A stretch of DNA of 64,000 bases from Ignavibacteria bacterium (GTDB lineage Bacteria > Bacteroidota > Ignavibacteria > Ignavibacteriales > Ignavibacteriaceae). This document shows, one piece after another, positions 30,811 to 39,309 of this stretch. The position numbers and the translations under genes are program-made. Numbering within the stretch: position 1 is the stretch's first letter; every line of letters begins with the position of its first letter. The DNA lies in the NCBI GenBank assembly GCA_017302895.1, contig JAFLBV010000004.1:1-64000 (forward strand), written 5' to 3'. Under the pieces are notes generated by a model. That model was not told where the DNA came from. It ran no database searches and was given only the letters and a program-made list of their open reading frames with translations.

Positions 30811-30849
30811 AATTATTTATTAGTTTTGAAGCGCAGCTCAAGTGAGAAT

Positions 30850-30881
30850 TTTGCATTTGTCGAGTGGAAACCTTATTTTTG
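30850..30881 (+). promoter_or_regulatory. Bacteroidetes-type promoter of the restriction-modification cassette
   Basis: TTTG (30850-30853), a 20-base spacer and TATTTTTG (30874-30881) fit the -33 TTTG / -7 TAnnTTTG consensus. The expected transcript start is about 24 bases before the methyltransferase ATG at 30912. An AGGA lies just before the ATG. It is the best promoter match in the window. Confidence 0.6.
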
Positions 30882-30911
30882 CGTTAGAAAGATATTTTCA
30901 GGATAAAAATA

Positions 30912-31790
30912 ATGCAACCAGAAAAAAGAACATTCGGCCAAACTGATTTCAGGTTTGATAAAAATTTTACACCCCTCCTTTTTAGCGATGGTTTAGCAGC
31001 CCATCCCTTTTTAAAGTGGGCAGGTGGGAAGACACAGTTATTACCTGCCCTAATGAATGAAATCCCGGCAAATTTTAATAAGTATATTGAACCTTTTGTA
31101 GGTGGAGGTGCATTATTTTTTAAGCTAAATCATTCAAATTCCATTATTTCAGATTCGAATGAAGAATTGGTAATTACCTACAATCAAATTAAAATCGATG
31201 TCCAATCCATTATTTCAGTTCTTAATGGTTATCGGAATACAGCAGATTTCTTTTATCAGCTAAGGTCTTTAAAAACAGATGATCTCAGTAAAACTGAGAT
31301 AGCGGCAAGGATGATCTTTTTGAACAAGACTTGTTTCAACGGGCTTTTCAGAGTAAATAAAAAGGGTGAGTTTAATGTCCCTTATGCGAATAACAAGAAT
31401 ATTAAAATTAACACAGACAATTTATTTAAGGTCGCCGATGCTTTGAAAAATACAACGATACTTCACGGAGATTACAAGGAAATAATAGGGAAATTTGCAG
31501 AAAAGGGAGACTTTATATTTCTGGATCCACCTTATCAACCAGTTGGTAAATTCTCTGACTTTAAGAGATACACAAAAGAATTTTTTTACGAGTCAGATCA
31601 AATTGAGTTGGCAACCGTATTCAGGAAACTTGTTGATAAAGGGTGCCATGTCCTCCTGACAAATTCAGAACACCCTCTAATTTTTGATCTTTATAAAGAT
31701 TTTGAGATAAAAATCCTTCAAACAAAGAGACTAATCAATAGCAATGCCGCTTCTCGCTCAGGAACTGACATTATTGTAATTGGTCGATAA
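30912..31790 (+). CDS. D12-class DNA adenine methyltransferase (Dam/DpnM-like)
   Basis: 292 residues. Motif X is F-L-K-W-A-G-G-K-T-Q (33-42), motif I E-P-F-V-G-G-G-A-L-F-F (60-70) and motif IV D-P-P-Y near residue 205, in the order of Dam-family N6-adenine methyltransferases; C-F-N-G-L-F-R-V-N also fits Dam. Dam and DpnM methylate GATC, so a GATC-containing target is plausible. The N-terminus has about 30 extra residues. It is the first gene of a three-gene restriction-modification cassette. The TAA at 31788-31790 is in the same reading frame as the second methyltransferase and is followed by 22 open codons, so the two may once have been one two-domain enzyme. Codon choice looks more AT-rich by eye than in the flanking sugar genes, consistent with transfer. 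Confidence 0.9.
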   Translation: MQPEKRTFGQTDFRFDKNFTPLLFSDGLAAHPFLKWAGGKTQLLPALMNEIPANFNKYIEPFVGGGALFFKLNHSNSIISDSNEELVITYNQIKIDVQSIISVLNGYRNTADFFYQLRSLKTDDLSKTEIAARMIFLNKTCFNGLFRVNKKGEFNVPYANNKNIKINTDNLFKVADALKNTTILHGDYKEIIGKFAEKGDFIFLDPPYQPVGKFSDFKRYTKEFFYESDQIELATVFRKLVDKGCHVLLTNSEHPLIFDLYKDFEIKILQTKRLINSNAASRSGTDIIVIGR

Positions 31791-31856
31791 ACGGAAAACA
31801 TCATCGAAACCGACATCTTCCCGGATTATTTTCGAAATTTCCCCGGTACCAGATAT

Positions 31857-32840
31857 ATGGGGAGCAAAAATAAAATTCTCGGTTCAATTTGGCAACACCT
31901 TGGTAAACTGGAGTTTGAAAGTTTTCTCGATGTTTTTGCCGGGAGTAATGTTGTTGGATATTTTATGAAATGCCAAAATAAGCGGGTAATTTCCAATGAT
32001 TTTTTAACCTTTAGTTATCTAAACGCAAAAGCTATTATTGAAAATCCCTCCGTACAACTATCAGATCAAGATATTCAGATATTATTAAAATACAATGAAA
32101 ACGATAATTTTATTCAGTCAACCTTTAAGGATGTTTTCTTTTCCGAAGAGGATAATAAATTTTTAGATTTCGTAAGATTCAATATAAGTCTTTTCGAAAA
32201 TGAATATAAAAAAGCTCTTGCATATTCATCGTTAGTAAGGGCATGTTTAAAGAAAAGGTCGAGGGGAATTTTTACATTTGTAGGCGAAAGGTATAATGAC
32301 GGTCGGGTTGACATGCAAAAATCCATTCAAGATCATTTCTTAGAAAGTATATCTCTTTACAACAACGCAGTATTTGACAACAATAAAACAAACAAAGCGC
32401 TCAACCTGAATTCAGAAGATATTCAGCTTAATACTGATCTCGTCTACTTAGATCCACCATACTATTCTCCAAAATCTGACAATGATTATGTACGAAGGTA
32501 TCATTTCGTCGAAGGACTGGTTAAAAATTGGGATAATCTGAAAATTCAGGAACACACTGCAGTGAAAAAGTTTAAGAGCTATGACACTCCTTTCTCTAAA
32601 AAAACTTCGTCAGCAATTGCATTGGATAACTTGATGAATAAGTTTAAGAACTCAATTATCGTAATTTCATACTCCTCCAATAGTCTACCCAAAAAGGAAG
32701 AGATAATCGAAATGCTGTCAAAATATAAATCGAATATCCAAACTCATGAAATCAAACATACTTATTCGATGGGTAACCAAAATCACAAAATTGGCAATGC
32801 GAATAATCGAATTCAAGAATATCTGTTTATAGGAAAATAA
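31857..32840 (+). CDS. Second D12-class adenine methyltransferase (FokI-methylase-domain-like)
   Basis: 327 residues from the first ATG. The protein opens at M-G-S-K-N-K-I-L, but this motif X normally reads R-Y-M-G-S-K, and R-Y is encoded directly upstream in frame. The frame is open back to the stop codon of the first methyltransferase (31788-31790) with no ATG, GTG or TTG, and its translation (ending F-P-G-T-R-Y) looks like genuine family sequence. The true start may therefore be a rare codon or come from read-through. Motif I is F-L-D-V-F-A-G-S-N-V-V-G and motif IV D-P-P-Y near residue 199. This arrangement (G-S-K, V-F-A-G-S, then N-D at the end of the next strand) is like one half of M.FokI. 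It probably methylates the second strand of an asymmetric site. The endonuclease gene starts five bases later. Confidence 0.88.
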   Translation: MGSKNKILGSIWQHLGKLEFESFLDVFAGSNVVGYFMKCQNKRVISNDFLTFSYLNAKAIIENPSVQLSDQDIQILLKYNENDNFIQSTFKDVFFSEEDNKFLDFVRFNISLFENEYKKALAYSSLVRACLKKRSRGIFTFVGERYNDGRVDMQKSIQDHFLESISLYNNAVFDNNKTNKALNLNSEDIQLNTDLVYLDPPYYSPKSDNDYVRRYHFVEGLVKNWDNLKIQEHTAVKKFKSYDTPFSKKTSSAIALDNLMNKFKNSIIVISYSSNSLPKKEEIIEMLSKYKSNIQTHEIKHTYSMGNQNHKIGNANNRIQEYLFIGK

Positions 32841-32845
32841 GTTTT

Positions 32846-34597
32846 ATGCTAAGAGTTTGGAATATAGGAAACACTACTGTTAGAAATCCTAAGAGAATTG
32901 AAAACGCCTTAAGGGTATTTGTTGAAGAAGGTTTTTCTGGCAACGCAAAAGGTAAAGATCAGGAAGAACGACTCCTCAACAAATTAAGAGAAAACCGAGT
33001 TGTTGAGTTCGAGGGTGAACCCTCAGCTTGGAATGGACGAAAATGGCGTGCCGCTTTCTATCAACTCGGTTTTATTAGCTATGAAAAGTATCTCATAGAT
33101 AAGGTAACATTTTCTGCTGAAGAATTCTTCAAAAAGATAAATTGTTCAAAGATATCATTTCCTTATCAGATCACTCCTGCAGGCAAAAAGTTAATATCTA
33201 CGGATAGAATTGCAGAAATAGAAGAAATTTATACCAGACAATTACTTTGTTATGAACTGCCAAATTCTTTGGAGAGAAGATTTGATAATGGCCCCTTAAA
33301 ACCTTTTATACTATTTCTACAAGTATTACAACTATTAAGATCTAAAAATCTCGATGGATTATCAAAACTAGAGGTCGGATTATTTTTACAAAGATTTTAT
33401 ACTCATAGCCCCGATCTAGCTGAGAATATTGTAAAGAATTTACTTGCTTTCAGGCACGATTTATCATCATGTAAGAATTCAAATGAACGAAAGGCAATTA
33501 AGAAAAAATATGTGGAATCCCTTCGGAAGGAAATCACCATAGACCCTCAATCCGTCGTTTCTGATTATTCAGATACCACATTCAGGTATTTTTTGCTGAC
33601 AGGGTTATTTTCAAGAAAGGGAGAAACAATCAGTATAAGAGACAGCAAAGTTGAATTTGTGAATTATCTTTTGGAATCGGAACCCGTGTTCACATTCAAT
33701 ACCAATCCGTATGAATATTTTTCCAATTTTTATAACTGTAGTTATCCCCTTCCTATTGATGATATTGAATTTTCTTTCAAAGAGGTTCAAAGGTTAAAAT
33801 CCGGAGTAAAAGATAAAAGACACGAATTATTTAAAAGAGCCGAGACTATTACTTTAGATTCAGGAATGAAAGAAATCAATGATCTTCGTCTTGACCTCAT
33901 TGAATACAATAATTGGGAAAGAGAAGTTGATTTCGCTTCACAACAGCAATCCATAAAATCAGTCAATGAAATCCTTGAATATCTTGCTATATTAAATAAT
34001 GAGAAACCAACGGGACATCTTGAGATTGATGATAGACCCGCATATCTAGAATGGGCTGTATGGAGGTCATTTCTCGCTATAAATGAAATTATTTGTCCTG
34101 TTCATGAAACAAGAAGGTTCCCCGTAGATTATGATTTTTTCCCGCGAAACACTGCCCCCGGAGGGGGTTCTGACTTAATTTTTGTATTTAAGAACTACAT
34201 TTTGGTTGTTGAAGTAACTTTGACTTCATCATCTAGGCAAATGGCAGTAGAAAGTGAGCCAGTAAGAAGACACACAGTTCAATATCAAAACATTTTTAAG
34301 GATAAAACTGTCTATTGTTTATTCGTTGCCCCCAGTATTGATAATAATGTAGTTGAGACTTTTAGGATCGGTGTTTGGTACAAAAATGATGAAGAAGAAT
34401 TTGTTAATATTCTCCCGATGGAACTCGGTGATTTTATTAACTTGTTCGAGATTTTCAGGTATAAAAAATTTACAAACGATGATCTTAAAAGTCTAATGGA
34501 CCGATGCTTGGTGTTTCGAAATGCCCGCGCTCCTCTATGGAAACGCAAGATAAGCTTGGAAATAAAAGAATGGAAAAATTCTTTTTTGAAAGAGTAA
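32846..34597 (+). CDS. AlwI-family type IIS restriction endonuclease
   Basis: 583 residues, cytoplasmic. The C-terminal third holds the AlwI/PleI/MlyI-type nuclease core: A-P-G-G-G-S-D-L-I-F (about 434-443), then V-V-E-V-T-L-T-S-S-S-R-Q (about 452-463) and E-P-V-R-R-H-T. The acidic pair D~440 and E~455 form the metal site, with Thr where PD-(D/E)XK enzymes usually have Lys, as expected in this family. The N-terminal two thirds (R-V-W-N-I-G-N-T-T-V-R-N-P) is the DNA-recognition part. AlwI-family enzymes cut beside short asymmetric sites such as GGATC or GAGTC. The adjacent Dam-like methyltransferase suggests a GATC-containing site here; that is inference. Starts five bases after the second methyltransferase. 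Confidence 0.87.
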   Translation: MLRVWNIGNTTVRNPKRIENALRVFVEEGFSGNAKGKDQEERLLNKLRENRVVEFEGEPSAWNGRKWRAAFYQLGFISYEKYLIDKVTFSAEEFFKKINCSKISFPYQITPAGKKLISTDRIAEIEEIYTRQLLCYELPNSLERRFDNGPLKPFILFLQVLQLLRSKNLDGLSKLEVGLFLQRFYTHSPDLAENIVKNLLAFRHDLSSCKNSNERKAIKKKYVESLRKEITIDPQSVVSDYSDTTFRYFLLTGLFSRKGETISIRDSKVEFVNYLLESEPVFTFNTNPYEYFSNFYNCSYPLPIDDIEFSFKEVQRLKSGVKDKRHELFKRAETITLDSGMKEINDLRLDLIEYNNWEREVDFASQQQSIKSVNEILEYLAILNNEKPTGHLEIDDRPAYLEWAVWRSFLAINEIICPVHETRRFPVDYDFFPRNTAPGGGSDLIFVFKNYILVVEVTLTSSSRQMAVESEPVRRHTVQYQNIFKDKTVYCLFVAPSIDNNVVETFRIGVWYKNDEEEFVNILPMELGDFINLFEIFRYKKFTNDDLKSLMDRCLVFRNARAPLWKRKISLEIKEWKNSFLKE

Positions 34598-34601
34598 CAG
34601 A

Positions 34602-34829
34602 ATGAAATGCCCTGTTTGTAAAAATGGTGAGACTGCTAAAGGTAAAGTTGTGGTAACTTTGGCCAAAGGTGAATTTATTGCTGTTTATCGCAGTGTTCCG
34701 GCTGATATTTGCCAAAACTGTGGTGAAGAGTATGTTGACAGCTCAATCGCCCGGTCGCTTCTTGAGTTATCAAATGAAACCTGCAAGAAAGGTGTCATCG
34801 TTGACATCAGAGACTATCGGGCGGCTTAG
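34602..34829 (+). CDS. YgiT-type (MqsA-like) zinc-finger protein
   Basis: 75 residues with two zinc knuckles, C-P-V-C (3-6) and C-Q-N-C (37-40), in the order of the MqsA/YgiT N-terminal domain, and the intervening beta segment V-V-V-T-L-A-K-G. These small proteins are usually antitoxins encoded beside an MqsR-like or DUF4258 toxin. No toxin gene is beside this one. It begins four bases after the endonuclease stop, so it is expressed with the restriction cassette. It could be an orphaned antitoxin, or a regulator of the cassette comparable to a controller protein. Confidence 0.82.
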   Translation: MKCPVCKNGETAKGKVVVTLAKGEFIAVYRSVPADICQNCGEEYVDSSIARSLLELSNETCKKGVIVDIRDYRAA

Positions 34830-34860
34830 CCTTCAGTGAACTATGATCTTTTTGGAATTA

Positions 34861-34900
34861 AGCTCATAGTTCGTACCTTATAGCTAATAGCTAAAAATTT
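34861..34900. repeat. Dispersed intergenic repeat, copy 2
   Basis: Starts AGCTCATAGTTCG and ends ATAGCTAATAGCTAAAAATTT, sharing both ends with copy 1 (19040-19077); the middle differs. It covers the stop codon of the small minus-strand membrane protein (34891-34893). Confidence 0.65.
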
Positions 34901-38306: not shown

Positions 38307-38338
38307 AGTGTTTTTAACTCATCCACTATTCAATATTG

Positions 38339-38370
38339 TTGGATTATTGGATTATTGCATTATTGAATTA
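38339..38370. repeat. Tandem octamer repeat (TTGGATTA, four units)
   Basis: Four units in a row: TTGGATTA, TTGGATTA, TTGCATTA, TTGAATTA. The last unit contains the stop codon of the minus-strand metal transporter (38368-38370). It fills most of the convergent gap after dctM. Confidence 0.7.
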
Positions 38371-39309
38371 CAAAAACAGGTTCCCATCCTTGTTCTTGGA
38401 GACATAGGAGTCGGGATCGAAAGGTTCGATGTGGCACAGCACATCTGAAACGCTCGGGAACACTTCCTTAATCCGGTCTTTAACTTGATGTGCGATCTTG
38501 TGTCCTTCGTGTACTGACAAATTACCGTTCACTATAACATGCATGTCGATGTAATATTCGAAACCCATCTTTCTAATATGGCACTTTTCGATATCCTCAA
38601 CCCCCTCCACTTCCATGGCGCAAGCTTTTATTTTTTCTTTGAATTCCACCGGAGGTGCTGTATCCAGTATCTCCTTGAGAGCCGGCATGAAAAGCGAGAT
38701 GGCATTATAAATGATGATAAATGAAGCGAAAAGAGCTGCATAATCATCCGCCTCCTCATAACCCTCTCCGCCAATAAGCGCAATGGCTATTCCGATGAAT
38801 GCTGCTGCTGAAGTTATTGCGTCACTTCTGTGGTGCCATGCATCATTTTTCACTGCAGTGCTGCCAAGTCCCTCGCCAACGACAATAATTTTCCTAAATA
38901 GTACTTCTTTCACAAATATTACCCCAATTAACACAAGAAGTGTATACGATTCAGGGGCATGATGAGGGGTAATGATTTCATGGAGACTTTGCACGATGAT
39001 GACAACCGCGGCCGCAACAAGCATCAATGAAACAAACATTCCCGCAAGCGGCTCTGCCTTTCCGTGACCATATGGATGGTCTTCATCTTTGGGACGGGAT
39101 GCATATTTTAGTCCGGCAAGAACTATTGTGGATGTAAAAATATCTGATAATGATTCTATTGCATCAGCAACGAGTGCATAGGAGTTTCCCAGAATTCCGG
39201 CGGTGCCTTTGGTTATTACCAGTACAAAAGAAACAAGTATCCCGATGAAGGTTGTTTTCATTCCTTTATCGGAAGAGCGTTCTGCATAACTTTTCGGTTT
39301 GATGATCAA
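38368..39309 (-). CDS. Cation diffusion facilitator (CDF) metal transporter
   Basis: 313 residues, six membrane segments and a C-terminal metallochaperone-like domain (about 225-300), the standard CDF plan. Metal-site motifs: A-D-A-I-E-S-L-S-D in segment 2 (E52-x3-D56) and W-H-H-R-S-D in segment 5 (H159-x3-D163); the H-P-Y-G-H-G-K-A-E loop lies between. CDF proteins export Zn, Fe, Mn or Co in exchange for protons. The Glu at position 52, where Zn exporters have His or Asp, leaves metal specificity open. Its start overlaps the stop of the S24 repressor by four bases, so both are made from one message. Confidence 0.92.
   Translation of the reverse strand: MIIKPKSYAERSSDKGMKTTFIGILVSFVLVITKGTAGILGNSYALVADAIESLSDIFTSTIVLAGLKYASRPKDEDHPYGHGKAEPLAGMFVSLMLVAAAVVIIVQSLHEIITPHHAPESYTLLVLIGVIFVKEVLFRKIIVVGEGLGSTAVKNDAWHHRSDAITSAAAFIGIAIALIGGEGYEEADDYAALFASFIIIYNAISLFMPALKEILDTAPPVEFKEKIKACAMEVEGVEDIEKCHIRKMGFEYYIDMHVIVNGNLSVHEGHKIAHQVKDRIKEVFPSVSDVLCHIEPFDPDSYVSKNKDGNLFL

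Follow-up and report, generated by a model that had tools for sequence, protein, structure and literature searches.

A type IIS restriction-modification operon whose second methyltransferase gene lacks a canonical start codon and probably uses a non-canonical one

Introduction

How is a DNA methyltransferase translated when its reading frame opens directly behind the stop codon of another methyltransferase and its conserved sequence begins before any usual start codon? This question was raised by a locus in a stretch of 64,000 nucleotides from an Ignavibacteria bacterium (hereafter the window, meaning the whole stretch of DNA that was analysed). M.FokI has two adenine methyltransferase domains and an asymmetric site. 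For AlwI-family restriction endonucleases, an excerpt of one report describes association with a fused Dam methyltransferase, and two separate proteins in Mycoplasma agalactiae (PMC12898733). An excerpt of another report names infC (ATT; ATC in Streptomyces) and sigR (GTC) as genes with non-canonical starts, which are held down by IF3 and misannotated (PMC5472188).

Results and Discussion

The locus is a type IIS restriction-modification operon

As read from the sequence, three genes follow one another on the forward strand in the order M1, M2 and R, and M1 and M2 lie in the same frame, split by a single TAA.

30912..31790, + strand: M1, Dam-family adenine methyltransferase of 292 aa (ORF; PF02086, E 2.6e-55; TIGR00571, E 1.8e-76)
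31788-31790, + strand: TAA stop codon of M1, preceded by CGA
31791..32840, + strand: M2, second D12-class methyltransferase, 349 aa if the start is 31791 (PF02086, E 1.1e-19)
32846..34597, + strand: R, AlwI-family type IIS restriction endonuclease of 583 aa (PF09491, E 1.9e-77; Nt.BspD6I, 2ewf, E 1.1e-21)
30815..34893, no strand: stretch missing from G369, a genome of the same genus with 665 bases of different sequence in its place (blastn breakpoints)

The presence of PF02086 in both halves bears out the initial annotation, which had called two methyltransferases. M1 scored 257.4 bits against the curated Dam model TIGR00571 (cut-off 114.85), placing it in the Dam family, and its nearest solved structures were DpnM and E. 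coli Dam. The PADLOC model PDLC03261 (643 positions) was matched by both proteins, M1 over 21-284 and M2 over 301-642. R begins 5 bases after the end of M2; its frame is intact, and the PF09491 match spans residues 105-533. The locus thus has what marks an AlwI-family system, an AlwI-family endonuclease gene with two adenine methyltransferase modules adjoining it. The three genes make up an operon for type IIS restriction-modification that is ordinary in family terms, and in which each methyltransferase would serve one strand of an asymmetric site. M.FokI-type enzymes are a fused chain, whereas M1 and M2 are not one chain, the TAA at 31788-31790 interrupting their frame. R is homologous to R.BspD6I / Nt.BspD6I, but is a single protein of 583 aa, and no separate small subunit was seen next to it.

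The operon was probably acquired, because G369, which is collinear with the window's genome at about 90% identity, has other sequence in its place and because the operon is richer in A+T (G+C of 0.34 from M1 to R versus 0.42 for the 204-kb stretch). A tRNA scan of the window found none. A repeat of about 40 bases lies near 38330-38385 of the window, with some 40 copies in G369. Outside the window, at about 115384-117780 of contig G000:C4 of the same genome, a TAG stands where an intact 807-aa frame of G369 has AAG; with about 89% identity behind the stop, this gene is a recent pseudogene, an error or a case of restart.

The M2 product begins upstream of the first ATG

Behind the TAA, the frame reads ACG GAA AAC ATC ATC GAA ACC GAC ATC TTC CCG GAT TAT TTT CGA AAT TTC CCC GGT ACC AGA TAT and then reaches its first ATG.

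31791..31856, + strand: 22 codons of the M2 N-terminus, ending F-P-G-T-R-Y (conservation, profile test, predicted fold)
31857..31859, + strand: first in-frame ATG (ATG GGG AGC AAA, MGSK), inside the conserved TRYMGSK motif and likely the annotated start

Direct reading found no ATG, GTG or TTG among the 22 codons and confirmed the initial statement that the first enzyme ends at this TAA and that 22 open codons without a usual start precede MGSK. That conserved family sequence lies upstream of the first ATG was also correct. Three M2 residues in this segment, P18, T20 and R21, were invariant in 35 of 35 aligned homologues. The FPGTRY codons of the window and of the relative L025 have 6 base differences between them but encode identical residues. 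The 16 codons upstream of this block were scored against an N-terminal profile of related M2 proteins, built from 12 relatives with the window and L025 left out. The score was 10.7, against -6.7 and -19.7 in the other two frames. Among 400,000 random open 48-mers drawn from this contig, 46 scored as high and 399,954 lower. Compared pair by pair between the window and L025, these 16 codons (-16 to -1) show 13 amino-acid replacements and no silent codon change, so that this tail appears to be under little purifying selection in the pair.

The predicted fold of M2 (pLDDT 85.6, pTM 0.88) was under pLDDT 50 for residues 1-8, which are predicted disordered, and confident from about residue 9, with a mean pLDDT of 84 for residues 11-20. 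The model matches many methyltransferases, among them T4 Dam, which is not the top match and whose first residue aligns at M2 residue 14 (Z 14.2 over 226 residues). Residue 14 onward is thus predicted to belong to the fold. By eye, via the M1 alignment, TRYMGSK lines up with LKWAGGK of Dam, in which the motif K-W-A-G-G-K has a cofactor role. A PDB profile search with M2 gave no match at E 0.01. Given the invariance of P18, T20 and R21 in the 35 homologues, the M2 product almost certainly starts earlier than 31857.

The closest relatives carry two separate genes

Among distinct M2 sequences with the motif [FY]P.TR[YFW]MGS[KR], 76 of 97 were open for at least 250 codons upstream or ran off the contig, and 21 were not. 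The 97 represent the closer members of the family rather than a random draw, the search having given the best 80 of 336 relatives; L115, with two genes and an ATG, is outside the motif-limited count. Two of the 21 (L009 and L018) were broken inside M1 and set aside, leaving 19. Two such domains in one chain, which the initial annotation had named for M.FokI-type enzymes, thus do occur in relatives. Single-chain examples are found on the Geobacillus kaustophilus plasmid pHTA426 and in the Erysipelothrix phage phi1605, AlwI-family systems with a fused Dam/D12 double methyltransferase, the same M1-M2-R order and homologous domains. In both, the fused methyltransferase adjoins an AlwI-family or type IIS R, whereas in the window M1 and M2 are two frames and M2 is without a canonical start.

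A tree was made from 95 rows of at least 300 bits with the motif, L034 being dropped because its contig begins inside M2. The window fell in a two-gene clade of 14 members (the window, L024-L033, L084, L131 and L135), which is one side of a branch with support 100/99, and L024 was its sister at 96/95. The tree label 'fused' was given to every row outside the 14, including L039/L104, L047, L048 and L079, which are not one open frame; L132, L130, L134 and L136 are second copies of L024, L025, L030 and L028. The clade relatives are 55-67% identical to the window in M2. Further relatives were sought in phylum, class and order samples, in which only L131 and L135 were new to the clade, and two viral contig scans for clade members found none.

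In all 13 other members of this clade of Bacteroidota and neighbours, M1 and M2 are separate as in the window, but their frames differ, the genes touching end to end or sharing a few bases. Of these 13, 12 have an ATG for M2 upstream of the conserved block. Since these 13 are all two-gene and share one branch at 100/99, the split is old and common to the closest relatives. The in-frame state of the window is then a local accident, which is not by itself remarkable, with a chance of 1 in 3. Fission happened more than once in the family, because L039/L104, L047, L048 and L079 are also not one open frame. The fused form is likely ancestral, with the tree root placed at the midpoint.

The one exception among the 13 was L025, from a Pyrinomonadaceae assembly different from the window's. 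Its 31 open codons hold no canonical start; they have GGAGG, then ATT and ACG, and the ACG, at codon -14 relative to FPGTRYMGSK, occupies the very position of the ATG in L024 and L135. Within the 19 non-fused of the 97 distinct sequences, the window and L025 are the two with no ATG, GTG or TTG in the open frame upstream of the conserved coding sequence.

The ACG touching the M1 stop codon is the best candidate start

Two candidates were considered in the M2 tail.

31791..31793, + strand: ACG touching the M1 stop (codon -16), the best candidate M2 start
31800..31805, + strand: ATC ATC, alternative near-cognate starts at codons -13 and -12 before FPGTRY

Similarity to the relatives reaches codon -14 (N-I-I-E in the window versus N-Q-I-E), and the score of the segment from -14 to -10 was reached by 1.5% of random segments. 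No near-cognate codon other than the ACG lies at codon -14 or further upstream, and the ACG aligns gaplessly with the ATG of L029. The extent of this similarity, the gapless match and the contact with the stop codon favor the ACG; the first eight residues, being predicted disordered, do not separate it from the ATC codons. At the start site, the window and L025 have ACG, L024 and L135 have ATG, and L131 has its ATG further upstream; the ACG is therefore not conserved in the window's sister. ACG is a poor start codon in E. coli. No Shine-Dalgarno-like stretch was evident by eye before the window's ACG, and RNA folding of the junction gave no structure (z 2.13, less structured than shuffles). 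A literature search for ACG start codons in bacteria returned no title on a bacterial gene using ACG, which does not imply absence from print.

We consider it probable that M2 is a gene of its own in a two-protein operon, with a product that starts upstream of 31857 at a codon other than ATG, GTG or TTG. Within this explanation, the ACG at 31791-31793 would have roughly an even chance of being the start, and ATC 31800/31803 would come next.

Alternative explanations for the M1/M2 junction

The initial annotation had proposed three causes, a non-ATG start, a recent stop that broke a fused enzyme, and read-through of the stop. The non-ATG start was the best supported, and the other two did not hold up against the clade relatives, which are split in different frames. 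A conventional start at ATG 31857, from which M2 would have 327 aa and miss the beginning of the conserved block, was also weighed, as this is the first canonical in-frame start and the 16 codons before FPGTRY vary strongly. However, such a protein would lose all three invariant residues and part of the segment that is modelled with confidence and aligns with the start of T4 Dam. Nor did the alignment that the initial annotation had called for show homologues beginning at MGSK. In each of the 12 split-clade relatives that have an upstream ATG, this codon precedes the conserved block, and in fused relatives the chain runs through the block. We regard a start at 31857 as unlikely. Read-through of the TAA, which would yield some M1-M2 single chain as in the fused relatives, draws on the shared frame, the single stop and the existence of those relatives. 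The in-frame arrangement is not kept, however, and in 13 of 13 clade relatives the differing frames make read-through impossible, while a shared frame has the 1-in-3 chance given above; read-through is thus very improbable here. A recent cut of a fused enzyme by a point mutation to TAA is in keeping with fused forms being the majority, and such a cut was seen elsewhere. In L047 (Chloroflexi), at the junction upstream of 3501, M1 and M2 share a frame that is interrupted by one TAG with an ATG immediately behind it, which clearly exemplifies the fission imagined by the initial annotation. In the window's own clade, however, the genes were already split, with a single origin at 100/99, and for this locus a recent cut is barely conceivable.

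The lack of a start codon could also come from the sequence itself. Were the base count off by one between 31783 and 31838, through a fault of sequencing or assembly, another start would come into frame, from which M2 would overlap M1.

31780..31782, + strand: TTG in frame +1, in frame after a one-base error (this explanation only)

Short A runs (AAA, AAAA) are present in that interval, and with one extra base M1 and M2 would be framed relative to each other as in the sister L024. Against this, 144 ORFs of G369 over 190 kb were compared with the window's genome, of which 124 were intact and 8 were not, the other 12 lacking a match above 75%. Six of these 8 had in-frame stops without a frame change (five of them inspected base by base), one had lost its N-terminal match and one (131 aa) lay in two frames. 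Frame-shifting errors thus appear rare in this genome, with no frameshift in any well-supported orthologous ORF, and L025, from another assembly, is also without a canonical start. An error of this kind is quite improbable in our judgement. The M2 start codon could instead have been lost, leaving M2 silent, so recently that its frame has stayed intact; in keeping with this, ATG is still present in the sister L024, and the tail codons vary. But M2 has retained the whole of its frame along with the D-P-P-Y motif, the frame of R is intact, and L025 would need the same accident, so that recent loss, slightly more credible than a sequencing error, is improbable too.

Possible re-initiation at the M1 stop codon

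The kind of operon described here is already known, and what is unusual is the start of M2, which is probably a real non-canonical one. Bacterial post-termination ribosomes can restart nearby. With the ACG as start, ribosomes finishing M1 would restart on the spot at the adjoining codon by coupled re-initiation, and its placement by the M1 stop codon would make up for a poor start codon. M2 may then be made at a lower level than M1. More tentatively, ACG might be the working start in both the window and L025, each lineage having arrived at it from ATG by its own T-to-C change. It would be either tolerated or selected as a throttle on M2, since a ribosome that has just terminated on M1 would re-initiate there regardless of the codon; we regard this whole scenario as possible but doubtful. 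In calicivirus, according to an excerpt of one report, re-initiation is largely insensitive to changes of the start codon (PMC5972666). An excerpt on re-initiation at non-canonical codons (PMC4648390) was not used, as it concerns a eukaryotic system. Like M2, infC and sigR are without an ATG, GTG or TTG start, and automatic annotation picks a wrong one (PMC5472188, excerpt). Their starts are experimentally demonstrated and conserved, whereas that of M2 is inferred, is not conserved in the sister and differs in being ACG.

If the ACG start is true, gene finders cut off the invariant T-R of M2, and the locus would be a natural case in which to ask if an adjoining stop codon can stand in for a good bacterial start codon. 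Ready-made controls exist in the relatives that have ATG at this position. Two enzymes in one frame with one stop between them need not mean a broken fusion.

Genes around the methyltransferases in the clade

In 7 of the 14 clade loci, a gene for an HTH regulator ends at the start of M1 (L024:2236-2619, L026:115-414, L027:2335-2637, L029:599-940, L031:149-475, L033:2325-2633 and L084:2341-2643). The window, L025, L032 and L135 lack it before M1, L131 has a truncated form, and the contigs of L028 and L030 begin too late to show it. A tie between loss of the ATG and loss of this upstream gene was rejected as a rule, because L135 and L032 are without the regulator but keep the ATG.

At 11 of the 14 loci, the window not among them, the gene after M2 encodes a protein of about 344 aa other than the AlwI-family enzyme (L025:4534-5571, L026:2327-3361, L027:4547-5578, L028:1338-2375, L030:1429-2463, L031:2385-3419, L032:4544-5578, L033:4542-5576 and L084:4553-5587; also in L131 and L135). 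Pfam DUF7226 was found in all four of the proteins scanned (L025, L026, L033 and L084), and the rest were recognised by similarity. A literature search with the term DUF7226 found no paper. The C-terminus has a D...E-x-K plus Q-L-Y-E-Y pattern, and the predicted fold (pLDDT 80.6, pTM 0.48) had its best Foldseek matches in Nt.BspD6I, XisH and BpuJI (E 7e-4 to 5e-2). On this model, the DUF7226 protein may be an undescribed type IIS endonuclease. In L084 (4553-7357), the DUF7226 gene and an AlwI-family endonuclease gene were both observed behind the same methyltransferases.
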